Positions 7,787 through 63,954 of a stretch of 64,000 nucleotides of DNA are shown here, piece after piece. Below the pieces are notes generated by a model, which ran no database searches, was not told where the DNA came from, and saw only the letters and a program-made list of their open reading frames with translations. Source of the DNA: Corynebacterium simulans (lineage in GTDB: Bacteria; Actinomycetota; Actinomycetes; Mycobacteriales; Mycobacteriaceae); NCBI RefSeq assembly GCF_001586215.1, contig NZ_CP014634.1, positions 1,426,001-1,490,000 on the forward strand, read 5' to 3'. Numbering within the stretch: position 1 is the stretch's first letter; the number at the start of each line of letters is the position of its first letter. A program made the translations under genes and the position numbers.

Positions 7787-8059
7787 ATGCCAAAGTCAAA
7801 GATCACCCAGAGCTCGGGCGTTCCGCAGTCCTCTAGCTCTGCGACCAACCGCACTCCGGTCAAGATCAATTCCGAGGGCACGCCAAAGTGGTACATCGCC
7901 ATCATGCTGGGCCTGATGATCATCGGCCTGCTGTGGCTCGTGGTCAACTACTTGGCCGGCGAGTCCATCCCATTCATGCAGGAACTGGGCCCATGGAATT
8001 ACGGCATCGGTTTCGGCTTAGCCATCATCGGCCTGCTCATGACGATGGGCTGGCGCTAA
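7787..8059 (+). CDS. crgA: Cell-division protein CrgA
   Basis: A 90-residue membrane protein matching CrgA in size and architecture: a short basic/Ser-rich cytoplasmic N terminus starting MPKSKI, two transmembrane helices (about 34-55 and 72-89) and the inter-helix loop with the GPWNYGIGF motif. CrgA is an actinobacterial division regulator that interacts with FtsZ and PBPs at the septum. Its position just downstream of pknB is the conserved arrangement in Corynebacteriales. It is separated from pknB by a hairpin and probably has its own promoter. Confidence 0.95.
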
Positions 8060-8075
8060 ACTTCATCCCCAGACC

Positions 8076-9164
8076 ATGAACTCTACGAGGTTCTACCTTT
8101 TCGCCGGCGTCGGCTTCATCATCGCCGTGATGCTGACCGTCGCCATCGATCCTTCTGTCCTCACCCCCGGCGCGCTGTTGCTAGCGGCCCTCGGCGTGGC
8201 ACTTACCCCGCTCGGTATGAACCACCCGCTGTGGGCGGCTGCGGCTTATAGCGCGCTTTTTGGTATTTGCACATGGCATACTGAATGGCGCTCGTTCTTA
8301 TTAGTCGCATGGAGCGCAGTCATCGTTGGGCTAATTTCCTACCGACGCCCATGGACTCACGCCGTTATCCCAGGACTGGTGCTGGTACTTCTTTCCATTA
8401 TCGATCCTGCACAGGGCATCTGCACCTCGCTCGACCTCTTTAGCTTTGTTCTGGTGTCCGCGATCAATTTGCTGGGTATCATTTTCGGCGTTTGGCTAAA
8501 AAAGGCGCGCCAACGCAGGCTCGCCGCTGAGCAGAGGAACCAGGAATACCGACACGCGCTGATGACCACGCTGCATGATTCCGTGGCAACGACGTTAACC
8601 TCGGTGGTCATGCGCTCAGAAACACTCGGCCTTCTAGAAACCAACCCGAAGGTGGCTGAGAACTCCACAGCCATCGCGGATGACGCGCGCAAGGCAATGG
8701 GTGAGGTCCGCGATCTGCTGCGCCTTATGAAAAACGAGGACCTTCCAACGTTAAAGAAAGCACGCTCGACCATCGCAGAAGAACTGGAAGAGATGCAGAG
8801 CTTCCTGAGAAGCCATGGTTTCGAATGCACTGTGAAAGGAAAGCTCGGGAAATTGGCGCGTTCCATGGCTTTGCCCAACGATCTGCATCTGGTCTTTTCA
8901 GAACTTAGCGCCAACTTGATCAAATACGCCGAAGCAGGTTCCGAAATCACCATCCGACTACGACGCAATTACCGCGGTCTCGATATAGAAGTCCATTCAC
9001 TCATCGCTGAAGCCCAGGCAGATCAACATATGACGACTAGACTGGGTCTTTCAGAAATCGAAAAAAGAGTTGCTGCAGCAAACGGCACTTTCAGCAGCGG
9101 CCCCCACAATGGTAAGTGGATAAGTGCGCTTTATATCCCAATTTCCAACATGGTGCGCAGATAA
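8076..9164 (+). CDS. Membrane sensor histidine kinase, NarL/HisKA_3 type
   Basis: A 362-residue sensor kinase. The first ~150 residues form about five transmembrane helices with very short loops and no obvious extracytoplasmic sensor domain. A basic linker (KKARQRR) leads into a DHp helix with the HisKA_3-type H-box LHDSVATTL, His167 being the predicted phosphoacceptor. The C-terminal ATPase has an N-box-like ELSANLIKYAE and a G-box TRLGLSEI. It starts 16 bases after crgA but is clearly a separate unit, followed by an exported peptide gene and a LuxR-type regulator (9479). The ligand is unknown. A multi-helix sensor next to a secreted peptide suggests envelope or peptide sensing, which is inference. 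Confidence 0.88.
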   Translation: MNSTRFYLFAGVGFIIAVMLTVAIDPSVLTPGALLLAALGVALTPLGMNHPLWAAAAYSALFGICTWHTEWRSFLLVAWSAVIVGLISYRRPWTHAVIPGLVLVLLSIIDPAQGICTSLDLFSFVLVSAINLLGIIFGVWLKKARQRRLAAEQRNQEYRHALMTTLHDSVATTLTSVVMRSETLGLLETNPKVAENSTAIADDARKAMGEVRDLLRLMKNEDLPTLKKARSTIAEELEEMQSFLRSHGFECTVKGKLGKLARSMALPNDLHLVFSELSANLIKYAEAGSEITIRLRRNYRGLDIEVHSLIAEAQADQHMTTRLGLSEIEKRVAAANGTFSSGPHNGKWISALYIPISNMVRR

Positions 9165-9226
9165 ACTTACCTTGTAGTAGGCTAAGGCCTATCGTCTTTA
9201 TTTCTCGCCCCAATAGGAGTATCTAC

Positions 9227-9472
9227 ATGCGTCTTCGTTCTGCTGCCGCCGCTGCCGGCGCCGTACTGTGCCTTACCAGCACCCCATTTGCTAGCGCTGC
9301 TTCTTCCTTCGGTTTTTCCAGTGCCGCTGAGTCTGCTACTCAGACTGAGACCGCCAACGAGACCGCCTACACCGGCGGATTTACCTACTACACCTCTCAG
9401 GCGGAAGACTTTGCAAACGCTTTGCGTTGCTCCACCAGCCCGCAGCGTTGGTGGTGTGGTCGTAGCCACTAA
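9227..9472 (+). CDS. Small exported peptide between kinase and regulator, unknown function
   Basis: An 81-residue ORF with a typical Sec signal peptide: MRLRS, an Ala-rich hydrophobic core, then ASA at about residue 25. The mature part is Ser/Thr/Glu-rich, then TGGFTYYTSQAEDFANAL, and ends with two Cys that bracket an eight-residue loop (CSTSPQRWWC) just before the C terminus. The ATG at 9227 has a good ribosome-binding site (AATAGGAGT), very similar to the one before the secreted gene at 11310. A longer reading from 9116 overlaps the kinase gene and lacks these features. I do not recognise a family. Its place between kinase and regulator suggests a signal peptide or accessory sensor, unproven. 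Confidence 0.75.
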   Translation: MRLRSAAAAAGAVLCLTSTPFASAASSFGFSSAAESATQTETANETAYTGGFTYYTSQAEDFANALRCSTSPQRWWCGRSH

Positions 9473-9478
9473 GCCTCG

Positions 9479-10129
9479 ATGTCCATTAGAGTCTTTCTCG
9501 TTGATGATGACCCGCTGGTCCGCTCGTCACTGCGGCTTTATTTCGAAACCACCGATGACATCTCGGTGGTAGCTGAGGCAGCTAACGGCGCAGAATGCCT
9601 CTCGATGCTGGACAACGTTGATGCCGACATCGTCTTGGCAGATATTCACATGCCCACGATGGACGGCATCACTTTGCTGCGCAAAATCAAGGAAAGGCCC
9701 TACCCGCCAGTTTTCTTGGCGGTGACATCCTTTGATTCGGATGACACCATGCTCAAGATTCTGCAAGAGGGCGGCGCTGGCTACATCCTGAAAAACCAAA
9801 GACCGCAATCCATCATCGATGCAGTGCACGAGGCCATCCACGGCGGCACCGTCGTTGCACCCGTAGCGATGCACCGCCTGGTGGGATACATCGGGGATGC
9901 GCCCCGTAAGGACCCAGTCGCCACCGCCATCGAGACGCATCACCTCAGCACTAACGAGATCAACGTGCTCAAACTGCTGCTACAGGGCAATTCGAATTCC
10001 GAGATCGCAGCAGCGCTGGAAATCTCAGAATCTTCGGTGAAAAAGCACGTCTCCAGCCTCATCGTCACCTTTAACGCAAGCACCCGCCTAAATCTTGTAA
10101 CCAAGATTTTAGGCGGGGCAGGTAGCTAG
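9479..10129 (+). CDS. LuxR/NarL-family response regulator
   Basis: A 216-residue response regulator. The receiver domain (about 1-120) has the acidic pocket VDDDP, the phosphoacceptor Asp55 (LADIHMP), the conserved Thr/Ser (AVTS) and Lys (YILKNQ). After a linker, the LuxR-type helix-turn-helix (LSTNEINVLKLLLQGNSNSEIAAALEIS.SSVKKHVSSL) occupies about 155-210. It starts six bases after the exported-peptide gene and is almost certainly co-transcribed. It is the cognate partner of the HisKA_3 kinase at 8076. Plausible targets are the peptide gene itself and the convergent secreted-protein operon. Confidence 0.92.
   Translation: MSIRVFLVDDDPLVRSSLRLYFETTDDISVVAEAANGAECLSMLDNVDADIVLADIHMPTMDGITLLRKIKERPYPPVFLAVTSFDSDDTMLKILQEGGAGYILKNQRPQSIIDAVHEAIHGGTVVAPVAMHRLVGYIGDAPRKDPVATAIETHHLSTNEINVLKLLLQGNSNSEIAAALEISESSVKKHVSSLIVTFNASTRLNLVTKILGGAGS
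10083..10117 (+). other. Strong hairpin inside the 3' end of the response-regulator gene
   Basis: CCCGCCTAAA-TCTTG pairs with CAAGA-t-TTTAGGCGGG across a TAAC loop. This gives about 15 base pairs with one bulge, lying in the last codons of the regulator gene. No T-run follows. It sits at the convergent end facing the secreted operon and may protect the transcript end or block antisense transcription. Confidence 0.6.
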
Positions 10130-10150
10130 GCACTGAGGCTAGAACACGTC

Positions 10151-10729
10151 TTAATACACCGGGGCGTCGTCAATGCGTAGCTCCGAATAGCGTGAGTACG
10201 GTGCGCTGACAAAGTACGGCGCGCCCTTTTCTACCCACTGCTGATCCTCGGAACAACGCACATCCTGCGAATCCGCGTCGAGCATCATAAAGCCCCACAC
10301 GAGCTTGCCTTGCTGATTAGCTTCCAAATCGTAGGGGCCAATCTTTTGCCCGAGGCTCCAATGGATCTGGTGGACGAAGTTAAAGCCAAATGCGTTCGAC
10401 ATGTACTTTTCAATGTCGCCGATTGGCTTCACCGAAACGCTGACCTCAGTGGTCTGCGTACGCTTATCAGTCACGGTGTGGCTAACTGGAACAGTGTAGT
10501 CGTTGCGATTAGCCACGCTGGCAGCGTCAGTCTGCTTAAACCACATGCGCTCCGCCGTGACATAGGTGCCCTGTGCGCCCGGTGTTGCACAGTGCGTGCC
10601 CGGCTTGTAGTCATCGTTCCAGCGCTGCGGCAGGCGGTAGGAAGCCGCGCCGTCGACAGCCTGCGCAGCCGGAGTGGCCGCACTTACTGCCACCAGCAAT
10701 GCTGCGGCGATGCGTGCAAACTTGCGCAC
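10151..10729 (-). CDS. Exported protein, paralogue A of a three-gene family
   Basis: A 192-residue secreted protein with a clear signal peptide (MRKFARIAAALLVAVSAATPAAQA). The GTG start is chosen for the GGGAGG ribosome-binding site six bases upstream. It shares spaced motifs with its two upstream neighbours: an early Cys followed by a turn (HCATPG), alternating polar/hydrophobic strands rich in Thr/Val (TTEVSVSV), GQKIGPYDL, and a late Cys in a V-R-C-x-x-D-Q-x-W motif. The pattern suggests an all-beta domain closed by one disulphide. It is the last gene of a C-B-A operon and converges on the two-component system. No known family is recognised. Confidence 0.82.
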   Translation of the reverse strand: MRKFARIAAALLVAVSAATPAAQAVDGAASYRLPQRWNDDYKPGTHCATPGAQGTYVTAERMWFKQTDAASVANRNDYTVPVSHTVTDKRTQTTEVSVSVKPIGDIEKYMSNAFGFNFVHQIHWSLGQKIGPYDLEANQQGKLVWGFMMLDADSQDVRCSEDQQWVEKGAPYFVSAPYSRYSELRIDDAPVY

Positions 10730-10740
10730 AGTTGCCTCCC

Positions 10741-11310
10741 CTAGTTGAACTTCATGTTGTCGCGAGTAGAAACCTCAACGTGGCGCTCTGCTGGCAGAGA
10801 CGCGGTGAAGGTCTCGCCGGTGCCCTGCCAGGTTCCGTCCTGGCCGCACACGGTCTTCTCACCTTCAAAGTCGGAGACAACCCAGCCCGCGCGCATGACG
10901 GCGGTCTTGCCAGGTGCAACGTTGTACGGACCGACGGTCTCGCCTACCTCGTAGGTCTGGGAATCGGTGTAGCCAGCGTTGAACTTGATGTTGACCAGCT
11001 TCAGGATGTCGAAGTCAACGCCTACGGAAACGTTCCAGGTCTTGGTCTTGGTCTCCTTGATGGCGCGGGTCAATGGCAGCGGCTCAGCATTGTAGTTGGA
11101 GACAGTCCAGGTGCCTGCGGAACCATCAAAGTAGGTGCGGACAATCTCAACGGTCTGGCCGGTATCGCCCGGGTTGACGCACTTTTCACCGATGGTGGTC
11201 GGGTTAGCAGCGCCGTGGTTAACGGCAGGCAGTGCCATTGCTGGTGCAGCGGCGATGGAAGTTGCAGCAATTGCGGATGCTGCCAGGGCGAGAGTGCGGT
11301 TAAAGCGCAT
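10741..11310 (-). CDS. Exported protein, paralogue B of a three-gene family
   Basis: A 189-residue secreted protein: signal peptide to about residue 27 (ending PAMA), then a domain with KCVNPGDTG, a Thr/Lys strand (KETKTKTWNVSVGVDFD), GETVGPYNVAPGKTAVMRAG and TVCGQDGTW. These line up with paralogues A and C. The ATG has an AATAGGAGTA ribosome-binding site nearly identical to that of the exported peptide at 9227. It is followed 11 bases later by paralogue A. The alternating strand pattern loosely recalls beta-pore or aerolysin-like folds, but no signature of those families is present and I make no such claim. Confidence 0.85.
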   Translation of the reverse strand: MRFNRTLALAASAIAATSIAAAPAMALPAVNHGAANPTTIGEKCVNPGDTGQTVEIVRTYFDGSAGTWTVSNYNAEPLPLTRAIKETKTKTWNVSVGVDFDILKLVNIKFNAGYTDSQTYEVGETVGPYNVAPGKTAVMRAGWVVSDFEGEKTVCGQDGTWQGTGETFTASLPAERHVEVSTRDNMKFN

Positions 11311-11365
11311 GATGTACTCCTATTTAGTGAGAAAGAAAGTGGGGTTGGTAGGCGGTGTCGTGGTG

Positions 11366-12652
11366 TTAATAAGCGGTCTGGGTCGCAACTGGTAGGTCAC
11401 GCCACTCATCTGGGGTGACGTCAACCTTGCGGGTCGAGCCATCCTTGCCAGTGACGGTGGCCTCCGCCCAGAATCCGGCCGGCGCGGAGGCCTGCTTGAA
11501 GTCGTGAACGAGGCTGTATTTACCATCGCGGCCACAGTGCAGCTCGCTGTAGTTCACGCGCATCATGGTGGTGCCGTATTCGATGCGCGCGCGCTCACCT
11601 GGCTTAAGGTCGAGCGGCGCCAGCGCGGTACCCACCGGCATGTAGGCACGCTGTGCGGCACCGATGGAGCCGAGCCAGCCCTCCGGCAGGCGGCCTTTAT
11701 TGCCCAGCCAGTTCATCTGGCCGTTGTACTGCGCGCCCACCAGGTGGTCGGTGATGCCACGATAGGTGTAATCAGCCTCAGTCCAGTTCATGAAGTCCTG
11801 GGAAAAGCCCGGCTTTCGGAAAGTAGGAGCTACGCCCTCAATGGTGTTCGGGTACCACTGCATATCGCCAGCGGTGCACTCTTCGCCTTCGCTCGGCCAA
11901 TTCTCGCGCTGCAGGTCGGTCGTAGGGTTGACCACATAGTCCTGCTTTTCATCGGCAATCTTCTCCAGGCTTGGGCCGGAGACGGCATTGTAGCCACCGT
12001 CAACAACCTTGCTGTTCGCACCCGGCGCGCGGGAAGGAATCTCAAGCGCTTGGTCATCAACGGTACCGTCGGCGTGGATTACGGTTGCCCAGGCATAACG
12101 CTCGGCCGGTGCGGTACCACGGATGACATTTGCACCCTGGATATTGGTATAGATGCCATCCTTGCAGTCCACAAACATGGAAATGAAGTCTTTTTCCACG
12201 GTGCCGTATTCCACGCGGAAGGAATCGCCAGGCGCAAGCTTGATCGGCCCGATGGTTTCCCCCTCTATCCAGCCGTTGGACAGAGTCAGACCGATGTCTG
12301 CCTTTGCGGTGGTGTTCCAGTTGGAAGGCCACTTGGCGGCAGAGTTTGCTTCGATCTCGTGATTAGTCCCGGATTCGACGGTGGCGGTGTACGGAACCGT
12401 CTGCTTGGTGGTGTTGGTGAACTGGATGGTGCCATCCGAAAGGTAACGGCGGCCAGTTTCACCAAAGTGCCAATCTGGATAGCCCGCTGCAGTAGCTTCT
12501 GTTGGGCTGCACTCCTGGTAGAGATTCTCAATCGGATAGCCCTGTGGCATGGCGGGGATCTCTGCGTGTGCCGCAGCAGGGGCAACGAGGCTTGCCGCAG
12601 ACAGTGCGGCGGCTGCTACGTAGTAGCTGAGACGGAGGCGGGGAATGCGCAT
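11366..12652 (-). CDS. Exported two-domain protein, paralogue C
   Basis: A 428-residue secreted protein with a signal peptide (cleavage near AAAHA, about residue 30). It contains two tandem copies of the domain seen once in paralogues A and B. The first has ECSPTEA, GETIGPIKLAPGDSFRVEYGT and FVDCKDGIY; the second has ECTAGDM, APLDLKPGERARIEYGT and ELHCGRDGKY. The copies are separated by a Ser/Asn-rich linker at about 205-250. The ATG has an AAAGGAA ribosome-binding site. It is the first gene of the operon and follows a long regulatory-looking leader region. Function unknown; internal duplication is evident. Confidence 0.85.
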   Translation of the reverse strand: MRIPRLRLSYYVAAAALSAASLVAPAAAHAEIPAMPQGYPIENLYQECSPTEATAAGYPDWHFGETGRRYLSDGTIQFTNTTKQTVPYTATVESGTNHEIEANSAAKWPSNWNTTAKADIGLTLSNGWIEGETIGPIKLAPGDSFRVEYGTVEKDFISMFVDCKDGIYTNIQGANVIRGTAPAERYAWATVIHADGTVDDQALEIPSRAPGANSKVVDGGYNAVSGPSLEKIADEKQDYVVNPTTDLQRENWPSEGEECTAGDMQWYPNTIEGVAPTFRKPGFSQDFMNWTEADYTYRGITDHLVGAQYNGQMNWLGNKGRLPEGWLGSIGAAQRAYMPVGTALAPLDLKPGERARIEYGTTMMRVNYSELHCGRDGKYSLVHDFKQASAPAGFWAEATVTGKDGSTRKVDVTPDEWRDLPVATQTAY

Positions 12653-13168
12653 CGCTACGTTTCCTTTTATTCACTATTTTTTGAAGTTTGAGGTTCACAG
12701 CAGCGCGGTCTCTCCCTCCACGCGCTGTGAACTACTCACATGACGCTAATCGGCCACCATCGCATCCTTCAATACCTCAGATACTTTCGGATAATTGCCA
12801 CTTGAGCTTGCATTTTCCAGAATTTTCCCAGCTATTTTTGACTCCGCGCGCAGCCAAAATTGTCCTTTCGTACACACCCGCTTCTGCCCCCTTCCCGAGT
12901 TGCCAACAAGATGGGAGGAAAGTTATCCACAGGCTGGGGATAACTCTGTGAAAATCAAATTCCCCAGCTTTCTTCCACAGCCTGTGGATAACTGTTTTCA
13001 CCCACTTCCACAAGGGCTAAATTACAAGAATGTAAGTCTTCTTGCCTGCGTGATCAGGCAAAACTCCGGCCATGCGTTCGAGAAATTACAAAAATGTAGT
13101 TATCCACATTGTGGATAACTACTGTGGAATTCTTTCGCACAAGCGTTTTGGTGAATAACTCGCCGGAG
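12653..13168. other. 516-base gene-free region with a DnaA-box cluster
   Basis: No credible gene is seen here; a + frame at 12688-12951 has no ribosome-binding site or family features. The right half holds four perfect 9-mer DnaA boxes: TTATCCACA at 12923-12931 and 13100-13108, and its complement at 12983-12991 and 13110-13118. Near matches are at 12935-12943 (TGGGGATAA), 13150-13158 (GGTGAATAA) and 13169-13177 (TTATCCCCA). The last two perfect boxes face each other one base apart. Two copies of an AAATTACA-(4)-TGTA element (13019-13035, 13083-13098) and one TGATCA (13051) also occur. The left end is the leader of paralogue C. Confidence 0.85.
12693..12731 (-). promoter_or_regulatory. Inverted repeat upstream of the secreted-protein operon
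   Basis: GTTCACAGC and its reverse complement GCTGTGAAC enclose 21 bases about 40-80 bases upstream of the start of paralogue C. It could be an operator, for example for the neighbouring LuxR-type regulator, or a 5'-leader hairpin. Confidence 0.5.
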
Positions 13169-13825
13169 TTATCCCCAAAACCCTGCTTGAAGGCCTAAAA
13201 AGAAACTTAAAGCCAAGAAAACCGTGAAAATTCCCGTCCATCGCACTCCCCGACGGCTGTTAAAAACAAAAAATGCGAGAATCACGCCTGTGAACAAACC
13301 GCCCAAATGACCCCATAGGGATACGCCGGACATCAAAAACGTGTAAGCCACGTTGGCCGCTACAAGAACAATGGGTGCCCGCAGATCCATACCGCGAGAG
13401 TTGTAGAGCCCTACCAGCAAAGCCAGCAGTGCATATATAGCTCCCGAGGCCCCCACCGTCGGTGTTTGATAATCCATCCCCAGCACGGCCGCTGAGGCGC
13501 CCAGCAAAGAGAGCAGATATACACAGGCATACAACACTCCGCCTAAGGCCTGTTCGATTTCGCGGCCTACGAGCAAAAGCAGAAACATGTTCACCGCTAG
13601 GTGTCCGAGATCGATATGCATAAACCCGGCACTTAGCGCCGTCAACGGCGCAGCCTCAAAGTCCGGGCCCCACAGCGTCCAGTCATAGGCCAGCGAAGAG
13701 CCGTAGTAGGACGCAGTAAGCGAATGCGACTGGATGGCGGTAACTGTCCAAACCAGCGTGCACAGGGCGATGACCCCGGCGGTGACCGGCGCTTGTTTTA
13801 GGTAGTTGCGCAATGTCTTTTCCAT
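13169..13825 (-). CDS. Rhomboid-family intramembrane serine protease
   Basis: A 218-residue polytopic membrane protein. Rhomboid signatures are present: an HIDLGHLAVNM motif in the second or third helix (HxxxHxxxN-like), the catalytic serine in GASGAIY, and the catalytic histidine in the WGHLGG helix. Six or seven hydrophobic segments are visible. It lies between the DnaA-box region and ppiA on the same strand. The family cleaves membrane-anchored substrates within the bilayer; the substrate here is unknown. The stop codon overlaps a variant DnaA box. Confidence 0.92.
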   Translation of the reverse strand: MEKTLRNYLKQAPVTAGVIALCTLVWTVTAIQSHSLTASYYGSSLAYDWTLWGPDFEAAPLTALSAGFMHIDLGHLAVNMFLLLLVGREIEQALGGVLYACVYLLSLLGASAAVLGMDYQTPTVGASGAIYALLALLVGLYNSRGMDLRAPIVLVAANVAYTFLMSGVSLWGHLGGLFTGVILAFFVFNSRRGVRWTGIFTVFLALSFFLGLQAGFWG

Positions 13826-13898: not shown

Positions 13899-14420
13899 TT
13901 AGGCGATCTCGATGGACTCGATGATGACGTCCTCACGTGGGCGGTCCATGCGGTCCGTATCAACCTTGGCGATCTTGGACACGACTTCCTGGGATGCCGG
14001 GTCGGTGACCTCACCAAAGATGGTGTGGTGGTTGTTCAGGTGCGGGGTCGCAGCCACGGTGATGAAGAACTGGGAGCCGTTGGTGCCTGGGCCAGCATTT
14101 GCCATAGCCAGCAGGAATGGACGGTCGAACTGCAGCTCTGGGTGGAACTCATCCTGGAACTGGTAGCCAGGGCCGCCACGGCCGGTGCCGGTTGGATCGC
14201 CACCCTGGATCATGAAGTTATCAATGATGCGGTGGAAAATTGCGCCATCGTAGAACGGTCCGGACTGCTCGCCCTTTGCGTTCTGGGTGGAGTAGTCCTT
14301 CTCGCCCTTTGCCAGGCCGATGAAGTTCTCCACGGTTACCGGTGCATGGTTACCGAACAGGTCGATAACGATATCACCGTGATTGGTGTGCATCGTTGCA
14401 GTTGCGGTCTTCTGAGTCAT
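13899..14420 (-). CDS. ppiA: Peptidyl-prolyl cis-trans isomerase, cyclophilin type
   Basis: A 173-residue cytoplasmic cyclophilin without a signal peptide. The family core is obvious: IFHRIIDNFMIQGGDPTGTGRGGPGY, FRP-type FDRPFLLAMANAGPGTNGSQFFIT with the catalytic region, and HHTIFGEV. The ATG at 14420 (MTQKTATATMHTNHGD) is preferred over an in-frame ATG 39 bases upstream because the latter adds a non-conserved basic stretch. A ppiA gene a short distance from gyrA is the conserved layout in corynebacteria. It accelerates prolyl isomerisation in protein folding. Confidence 0.94.
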   Translation of the reverse strand: MTQKTATATMHTNHGDIVIDLFGNHAPVTVENFIGLAKGEKDYSTQNAKGEQSGPFYDGAIFHRIIDNFMIQGGDPTGTGRGGPGYQFQDEFHPELQFDRPFLLAMANAGPGTNGSQFFITVAATPHLNNHHTIFGEVTDPASQEVVSKIAKVDTDRMDRPREDVIIESIEIA

Positions 14421-14485
14421 GCCGACCATTGTATGGAATTTCTGGCTCGCGCGCCGCAAATGACATAACGCCCTAAGCGATCACT

Positions 14486-39109: not shown

Positions 39110-39654
39110 GGTCTCGATGAGCTCCTTGCTGGGTTCTAGCTGGGTTGATTTTTGTAAGTAACAAAAGCTGTTTCCAACTTACCGCATAGGCGCCGTGCGA
39201 CAGACTTTTGTAATTTACTCGCGGCCTGGCGCCTCGGGCCGAGGCGAGGGCGAGAATTACACACATCCCCTTTTTACTTAAGGGATCAGGAAAAATAGTT
39301 AGTAGTAGTAATAACCGTTGTGAGATCTGTGGATAACGCCCTAAAAGGCAAGGTGACGGGCCCGATCCGCGCTGTGATCGTGGTTGTGGGATCAGTGTGA
39401 TCAAATTACATAAATTGTGAGTAACCGGAGGGGTGCCGGTTTTATCCACAATCTATCCCCAGGATTGTGGAATTTGATCACAGCATTGATCACAAGCTCC
39501 TGATCAGGGCGAATGCTTTGTGAAAAACAAAAATGTGTCGAAGATCTATGAATTACAACAATGAAATTACACAGATGTGAATAACGCTGTGGATAAAAAT
39601 AACCCGCCACCTAAGTGCAGGTGGCGGGTTATATTTCTAGCTGCAGAAAGCGTT
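39110..39654. other. dnaA-dnaN intergenic region with DnaA boxes (part of oriC)
   Basis: No gene is present in these 545 bases. Perfect DnaA boxes lie at 39328-39336 (minus), 39442-39450 (plus) and 39588-39596 (minus); variants at 39453-39461 and 39576-39584. AATTACA recurs at 39255, 39404, 39551 and 39565, and in reverse at 39209-39215. TGATCA palindromes lie at 39398, 39475, 39487 and 39501. The region must also hold the dnaN promoter. In related genera the dnaA-dnaN gap is a functional origin element. Confidence 0.85.
39601..39630 (-). terminator. dnaA transcription terminator
   Basis: AACCCGCCACCT-aagtgc-AGGTGGCGGGTT is a perfect 12-base-pair hairpin 25 bases after the dnaA stop. On the minus strand it is followed by ATTTTTAT. 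Confidence 0.9.
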
Positions 39655-41199: not shown

Positions 41200-41816
41200 C
41201 GCGCCTACCTTGTGCGGCCTTCCCAGAAGAAGGCCCTAGTTCGGACGGAGAAAAATTTACAGTGAATTTCACGGACGTATCCACATCGAAAATTGCGGCA
41301 CGACCTTGATCTCCACAGAGTTATCCACAGATGTGGAACAAATGTTTATCCACAGCCTAGTCGATGGCTGTGGATAACTATCAATCGGGTACTTTAGGCT
41401 ATTTACCTGCTGGAATACAAAAAGTCTAAAGCTGAGATTTAGAGTTATTCACACCTTGTGGACGGCTGTGGAATTCGATTCTTTAGTTTTACCGCCGAGT
41501 TAGCGGGGCTGTCTAACGCTTTTCGGCGCTTGCATGGCGTGAACCTAAAATGCAAGCCGCCGTATGTGCTCTGACCCCGCAAAGTAGCCTTTTAGCTGCA
41601 GATAAAAACATCTTTGTAATTTTGGGTACACCCGGGTGTCGATTTGTTCAAGGCTGCATTCGTCACGTAATCTGTCATGGTCTATCGCAACAGAAGACGT
41701 TGCGCGTGAGTGTGAACCCACTCCCAAGGGTTGCTAACTACTCACATATCCATTCATCAGTGGAGCTGGGGGAATGACTTTCCCTGGGCTCCGCGCACAA
41801 CTTCAAGGAGATAATC
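41200..41816. other. dnaA-rpmH intergenic region with DnaA boxes (oriC candidate)
   Basis: No gene is present in these 617 bases, and transcription diverges here (dnaA on minus, rpmH on plus). Perfect DnaA boxes are at 41321-41329 (plus), 41346-41354 (plus) and 41369-41377 (minus). Variants are at 41277-41285 (GTATCCACA) and 41445-41453 (TTATTCACA). A-T-rich stretches follow at 41400-41460 and 41590-41630. Gene orientation flips here, as expected at an origin, so this and the dnaA-dnaN gap together are the best oriC candidate. Confidence 0.88.
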
Positions 41817-63926: not shown

Positions 63927-63954
63927 AGCGAGTGTTTCACGTGAAACACTCGCT
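63927..63954. terminator. Perfect 28-base palindrome: parS embedded in a terminator hairpin
   Basis: The 28 bases are a perfect palindrome whose core is parS. On the plus strand a GTTTTT run follows; on the minus strand CTTTTGC follows. It can act as a bidirectional terminator between the oxidoreductase remnant and the convergent gene at the right edge. Confidence 0.8.
63933..63948. promoter_or_regulatory. parS: parS centromere site
   Basis: TGTTTCACGTGAAACA matches the bacterial parS consensus exactly. ParB (encoded at 45073-46083) is expected to load here. It lies about 22.5 kb from the dnaA-rpmH region, within the usual origin-proximal zone. It is the only consensus copy I saw in the window. 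Confidence 0.93.

Follow-up and report, generated by a model that had tools for sequence, protein, structure and literature searches.

Why does a stretch of the Corynebacterium simulans chromosome ~27 kb from oriC carry more perfect DnaA boxes than either flank of dnaA? We examined this question in 64,000 nucleotides of contiguous DNA, hereafter the window, in which the cluster occupies positions 12923-13177, at a distance of 26.5-28 kb from the dnaA gene (28 kb in the initial annotation). The cluster consists of four perfect and two one-mismatch DnaA boxes; the four perfect boxes stand as first annotated, and the three near matches reported with them come down to two at one mismatch. As also noted there, the two flanks of dnaA bear three perfect boxes each, those on the rpmH side lying within 57 bp, and a single base separates the facing boxes at 13100-13108 and 13110-13118. 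In the window, 10 perfect boxes were observed versus 0.13 expected, a number reached by none of 100 shuffles. The 2.74-Mb genome holds 36 perfect boxes, compared with 13 matches to a reversed control pattern, and the cluster is its sole place with four perfect boxes within 200 bp. The features of the window are the following.

12923 (+), 12983 (-), 13100 (+) and 13110 (-): perfect boxes, TTATCCACA, by sequence match
12935 (-) and 13169 (+): one-mismatch boxes, TTATCCCCA, by sequence match
13169-13177 (+): the latter of these weak TTATCCCCA boxes, overlapping the rhomboid stop codon and matched at the corresponding position in 20 of the alignment's 24 rows (counted by eye)
13100-13118: module A, the facing pair TTATCCACA-T-TGTGGATAA, two strong boxes at offset 10, from sequence and alignment
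12971-12991: module B, a strong box at 12983-12991 (-) facing a weak box at 12971-12979 (+), offset 12
12923-12943: module C, a strong box at 12923-12931 (+) facing a weak TTATCCCCA box at 12935-12943 (-), offset 12
13083-13098 (-): TACATTTTTGTAATTT, the conserved ACA-N4-TGT-N-ATT motif adjoining module A, which resembles an MtrA direct repeat
13019-13034 (-): TACATTCTTGTAATTT, a second copy of this motif, by alignment present in this species and degenerate in locus L003
13084-13128 (-): composite core, profile match, E 1.1e-7
13169-13825 (-): rhomboid protease gene, the upstream neighbour (Pfam Rhomboid, 4e-23)
13899-14459 (-): ppiA, cyclophilin gene, start codon uncertain (Pfam Pro_isomerase, 6e-49)
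7787-8056 (+): crgA (tblastn, 2e-36, with the L021 homolog, itself matching Pfam CrgA at 2e-33)
39110-39654: oriC, between dnaA and dnaN, with three perfect boxes and the DnaA-trio TAGTAGTAGTAATAA at 39300

The initial annotation had proposed conservation in relatives as a check, and the boxes proved to be conserved. A rhomboid search matched 137 of the 151 Corynebacterium genomes drawn; the analysis covered 136 loci and left out G103, which lies at a contig edge and was later read as L240. Between -100 and +800 of the rhomboid stop, the box TTRTCCACA occurs at least three times in 89 of the 136 loci, once or twice in 9 and not at all in 38. In contrast, 5' control stretches of similar length, mostly coding DNA, contain one box in 9 loci and none in 127. 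These genus windows hold 438 boxes, whereas 20 dinucleotide shuffles average 1.8 and bring no locus to three. Aligned over 24 rows, the boxes form islands of identity while the sequence around them drifts. Allowing at most one mismatch, 88 of the 151 genomes contain the facing pair TTRTCCACA-N-TGTGGATAA, and none contains its reversed control. Among the matches listed, 87 of the 88 positive genomes have one such site and G086 has two. The pair lies within -100 to +1700 of the rhomboid stop in 84 of 136 loci; elsewhere, it was seen in G008, which has no rhomboid, 3.6 kb further on in G097, and on a different contig from the rhomboid in G024 and G125. Taken together, the cluster is almost certainly a selected DnaA-box element.

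The element is not universal. Six of the 38 box-free loci have boxes further on (L034/G097, L045, L083, L085, L087 and L092), so that about 32 of 136 seem to be without it, and in those genomes the element would seem to be dispensable. Most loci from L102 to L137, whose rhomboid is distant, are box-free at this place, an apparent loss, with L103, L106, L107, L109, L130 and L132 as exceptions. L063 (G118:C13:70200-75800) carries fifteen perfect boxes in ~500 bp behind the rhomboid, an expanded element.

The boxes are arranged by rule. Across 45 genomes, A+, A-, B+ and C- are strong and B- and C+ weaker, A+ and A- being nearly invariant. The ordered A-B-C triple was found in 45 of 136 loci versus none in the reversed control and three shuffled controls, the latter plain shuffles, as the dinucleotide shuffles cover the genus windows only. 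In these 45 loci, the B-C spacing is 37 bp (1), 47-48 (30), 57-59 (8) or 67-69 (6), and the A-B spacing 124-128 bp (30), 133-138 (11) or 147-149 (4); rhomboid-less G008 has spacings of 137 and 58. At a period of 10.5 bp, the B-C distances are strongly phased (Rayleigh R 0.90, p 0.0006, over 9 distinct values) and the A-B distances more weakly (R 0.55, p 0.03, distinct values). The B-C class changed at least seven times on a rhomboid tree in which 16 of 42 inner branches are well supported, compared with a minimum of three for four classes. We interpret this pattern as selection that favours a single helical face.

The element is not bound to its neighbour genes. In many relatives, its convergent neighbour is crgA, which in this window lies 4.9 kb away; the secreted-protein operon named as the flanking context in the initial annotation is indeed there, but as part of a 4.6-kb stretch that parts the element from crgA. 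Between crgA and the element (8076-12652), we noted two two-component-system-like genes, judged from their translations, and three secreted proteins, for which Pfam gave no match. The element is likewise kept where other genes part it from the rhomboid or crgA. Among rhomboid-less Corynebacterium genomes, 12 of 14 were checked via ppiA and 10 of the 12 keep boxes behind it; G046 and G148 have none there. Nine genomes that bear a rhomboid and lack the element (G010, G015, G030, G053, G065, G076, G106, G127 and G147) also have no boxes behind ppiA.

Beyond the genus, we analysed 89 loci, comprising the best-scoring 30 of 186 matching class genomes, 20 hand-picked (mostly complete) and 39 named ones, a set that takes in our own genome and a few non-actinobacteria. 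Boxes lie within -30 to +700 of the rhomboid stop in 38 of the 89 versus none of 89 control stretches; the 51 box-free loci outside the genus include many with the rhomboid at a different place. An upstream ppiA is associated with boxes (29/47 versus 9/42, Fisher p 2e-4). Boxes follow ppiA in 26 of 28 mycobacteria (g2) and crgA in 26 of 29 Streptomyces-like loci (g23; one of 30 gave no crgA), with controls at 0; both labels are our own assignments, made partly by gene order. Mycobacteria mostly have one perfect box plus weak ones and would therefore have little titrating power, and Streptomyces-like loci mostly have three to four boxes with a different spacing. In S. coelicolor, DnaA-box clusters were reportedly named H69, H24 and D78 by Smulczyk-Krawczyszyn in 2006. 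We take ppiA-rhomboid-crgA to lie on cosmid H69, and H69 may be the Streptomyces form of the element, that is, the cluster of 2006 may be its ortholog.

Position is also shared. By hand count over the 23 class genomes that have a box and carry rhomboid and dnaA on the same contig, the rhomboid lies 11-60 kb from dnaA, on the same strand and on the dnaN side, in 20; larger distances occur in G257 (73 kb), G288 (103 kb) and G311 (176 kb). In dnaA-numbered Corynebacterium genomes, it lies for example at 13 kb (G149), 26 kb (G006), 35 kb (G014) and 44 kb (G143), but at 136-140 kb in G110 and G093.

When loci were aligned on the box, a core of ~50 bp common to several families emerged: TTATCCACA, 12-13 bp, a second box in direct orientation, ~10 bp, a facing TGTGG/TGGGG box and then ACA-N4-TGT-N-ATT. 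A profile built from 13 cores, at a threshold of E<1e-3, matched 31 of 31 mycobacteria outside the training set and 82 of 133 Corynebacterium loci, and gave 0 in the reversed control. It matched 11 of 43 class loci, 7 of 37 named non-Corynebacterium loci, 6 of 30 Streptomyces-like loci and none of three E. coli DARS/datA stretches; the core is present in 36 of 41 named Corynebacterium-type loci, among which C. tuberculostearicum, C. minutissimum, C. aurimucosum, C. flavescens and C. macginleyi were recognised from their facing pair. In a 400-kb stretch of G110, the element is the sole match at E<1e-3. Certain other loci carry the core inverted with respect to the rhomboid. The sequences are best explained by an element inherited at one place, in the order ppiA-rhomboid, element, crgA and mostly tens of kb from dnaA towards dnaN, through much of the class Actinomycetes.

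At up to two mismatches, the genome has three matches to TACATTYTTGTAATTT, two of them inside the element and the third upstream of dnaA (window position 41607); the third is the motif AACATCTTTGTAATTT at 41607-41622. TACA-N4-TGTAAT was found in 41 of 89 box-bearing loci, with 45 copies in 80 kb of element windows versus 0 in 356 kb of surroundings. This motif admits two readings, a palindrome or a direct repeat of the MtrA type with an 11-bp period. The published C. glutamicum MtrA consensus, (A/G)TAACAATttn(A/G)TAACAAT, is such a repeat with the same period (excerpt of PMC3353115), and the published consensus was taken from excerpts of PMC6265350 and PMC13189361 as well. RTNAY-N6-RTNAY is present in 31/33 mycobacterial, 15/26 other-genus and 22/85 Corynebacterium core matches, and ACA-N4-TGT in 33/33, 22/26 and 78/85, respectively. 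As excerpted, the consensus seems to fit mycobacteria well and Corynebacterium only in part, so that MtrA as the partner protein on this site is our guess. In mycobacterial oriC, DnaA boxes are interspersed with MtrA boxes according to an excerpt of PMC4285127, an arrangement that the element would share if its motif is an MtrA site; the element differs in having neither a TAA/TAG run nor a skew turn.

What, then, would such an element do? We infer that it binds DnaA, and consider it probable, by analogy, that it is a cis-acting control locus that works in the manner of datA, lowering free or active DnaA after initiation. The negative sign would follow from position and from likeness to known systems. 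In E. coli, datA is a box cluster with spacing rules and shares the offset-12 facing pair with the element (excerpt of PMC4585315), and differs from it in needing IHF, around whose site its essential boxes are spaced, in its distance and in its gene context. DnaA titration near the E. coli origin is described in an excerpt of PMC12371093. The origin-proximal clusters of S. coelicolor, in the excerpts of PMC5742627 and PMC4585315, are reported to repress untimely initiation; like the element they lie close to the origin, and Streptomyces-like loci differ from it in box number and spacing as noted above. The Bacillus subtilis DBC (Okumura 2012), clusters near oriC with a negative role, resembles the element as described in the excerpt of PMC5742627. 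Among the matches listed, the literature excerpts on the locus describe no conservation outside Streptomyces, no core and no phasing, and give no coordinates for the Streptomyces clusters; nor did those matches include DnaA-binding or phenotype data for the element, a Corynebacterium DnaA ChIP study, a paper on a DnaA-box cluster in the genus, or anything relevant on crgA, ppiA or rhomboid with DnaA boxes.

A conserved, ordered and helically phased locus near oriC fits the DnaA-control part of the initial datA/DARS proposal best; DARS membership proper was not supported by geometry. Against DnaA control as such, the full A-B-C triple is present in only a third of the 136 loci. Were the element DARS-like, it would promote ADP release from DnaA and raise active DnaA before initiation. 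What marks the DARS core is a set of opposed boxes on which DnaA molecules meet head to head (excerpt of PMC8682772). Opposed boxes are common to E. coli DARS1 and DARS2, to which the three facing pairs here may be compared, and pairs at the DARS offset of 14 exist in two genomes (G031 and G109). However, the K-12 DARS1 and DARS2 cores have the geometry 0/14/26, as opposed to 0/10 and 0/12 in the element, so we rejected membership; DARS2 also depends on IHF/Fis. Moreover, an origin-proximal place would suit a negative element better, and we regard DARS-like action as unlikely.

Alternatively, a complex of DnaA, with or without MtrA, could fold, tether or position the origin region and leave the DnaA level alone. 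Helical phasing, a location beside the origin and the near-constant single facing-pair site per genome among the matches listed would all suit such an architectural or segregation role. Yet no link to parS was found, the window having just one parS-like site at up to three mismatches, at 63933, and we consider this role rather improbable. That site, TGTTTCACGTGAAACA at 63933-63948, is a perfect parS-like sequence.

The suggestion of a second or bipartite origin was not upheld and is now very doubtful. The cluster does exceed either dnaA flank in perfect boxes, and oriC gives a weak match to the core (39596-39552, E 0.05). But the only TAA/TAG (DnaA-trio) run of the window is the one at 39300 between dnaA and dnaN, and no run of three such units lies in 12880-13200. 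In G110, where 137 kb separate the element from dnaA, the GC-skew minimum over 400 kb falls at +4 kb, and the skew keeps its sign across the element; it thus turns at dnaA. In our own window, a shallow minimum lies at 34 kb. On these tests, in the window and G110, we rejected a replication origin; marker-frequency work in C. glutamicum, as excerpted, places oriC at 0 kb and makes no mention of the element's locus (PMC5461407). The locus is an oriC-proximal DnaA-box cluster in the loose sense: several boxes in non-coding DNA, near oriC and not an origin.

Boxes were also noted at other places. The runner-up cluster away from dnaA has three boxes within 202 bp between rplI and dnaB (C1:1601686-1601887). 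This dnaB site (G000:C1:1601686-1601887, L221) has DnaA boxes ~134 kb upstream of dnaA, both in our own genome and in G110, and recurs in L192, L193, L196-L198, L202, L203, L208, L216 and L218, in the rplI-dnaB interval where both genes are visible. A search of 51 element-less or doubtful genomes fetched 30 facing-pair loci, 10 of them at dnaB. G110 carries at -124868, +115721 and +181263 an identical two-box pair (minus, then plus 39 bp on), perhaps a mobile repeat.

DnaA-dependent promoter control of the neighbours, another initial suggestion, fares no better and is highly improbable. In this window, the gene on the far side encodes a secreted protein, has the same orientation and begins 270 bp from the element, and one weak promoter-like site was found (shuffle mean 0.5). 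The commonest position of the element is, however, between convergent 3' ends, which argues against a promoter: where the neighbour is a convergent crgA, 67 of 95 genus loci and 32 of 40 class loci have boxes in the interval between the 3' ends, with 290 (genus) and 56 (class) boxes between rhomboid and crgA versus 1 and 0 beyond. Far-side genes are diverse as well, with 37 families among 87 loci by calls that rest on a GC3 heuristic, the commonest being convergent crgA (32 loci).

That the palindromes are intrinsic transcription terminators is scarcely credible: module B, and module A together with its run of T, look terminator-like (2 found, shuffle mean 0.8) and lie 3' of the rhomboid, but in mycobacteria the core is no long stem, and of 160 deviating cells only 2 keep pairing by two-sided change while 125 break it and 33 leave a G-T pair, a count somewhat biased by the required closeness to a DnaA box. 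A structured RNA was likewise rejected, as Rfam on 12500-13400 gave four sub-gathering miRNA/snoRNA matches, read as chance.

Returning to DnaA control, the strong boxes would anchor DnaA, and the weak boxes between B and C would be filled cooperatively; domain I of actinomycete DnaA dimerises according to an excerpt of PMC13270200. The fixed helical phase would let modules A, B and C assemble into a single ordered complex, in which a partner protein, for which MtrA is the candidate, would probably occupy the ACA-N4-TGT-N-ATT site. Copied soon after oriC, the element would double early and take up or inactivate DnaA, opposing re-initiation. More tentatively, a composite DnaA/MtrA element may predate the divergence of Corynebacterium, mycobacteria, Pseudonocardiaceae and Micrococcales-type lineages and may link envelope signalling through MtrAB to how much DnaA is present or in what state.

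To our knowledge, how actinobacteria restrain DnaA after initiation is poorly understood. The element offers a single short target in non-coding DNA, found in one location across many species, and its spacing rule predicts that an ordered complex forms. If the composite DnaA/MtrA reading is true, the element would be an actinobacterial answer to datA and DARS, with MtrA in place of the IHF and Fis of E. coli. The locus may also be where MtrAB signalling and replication control meet.
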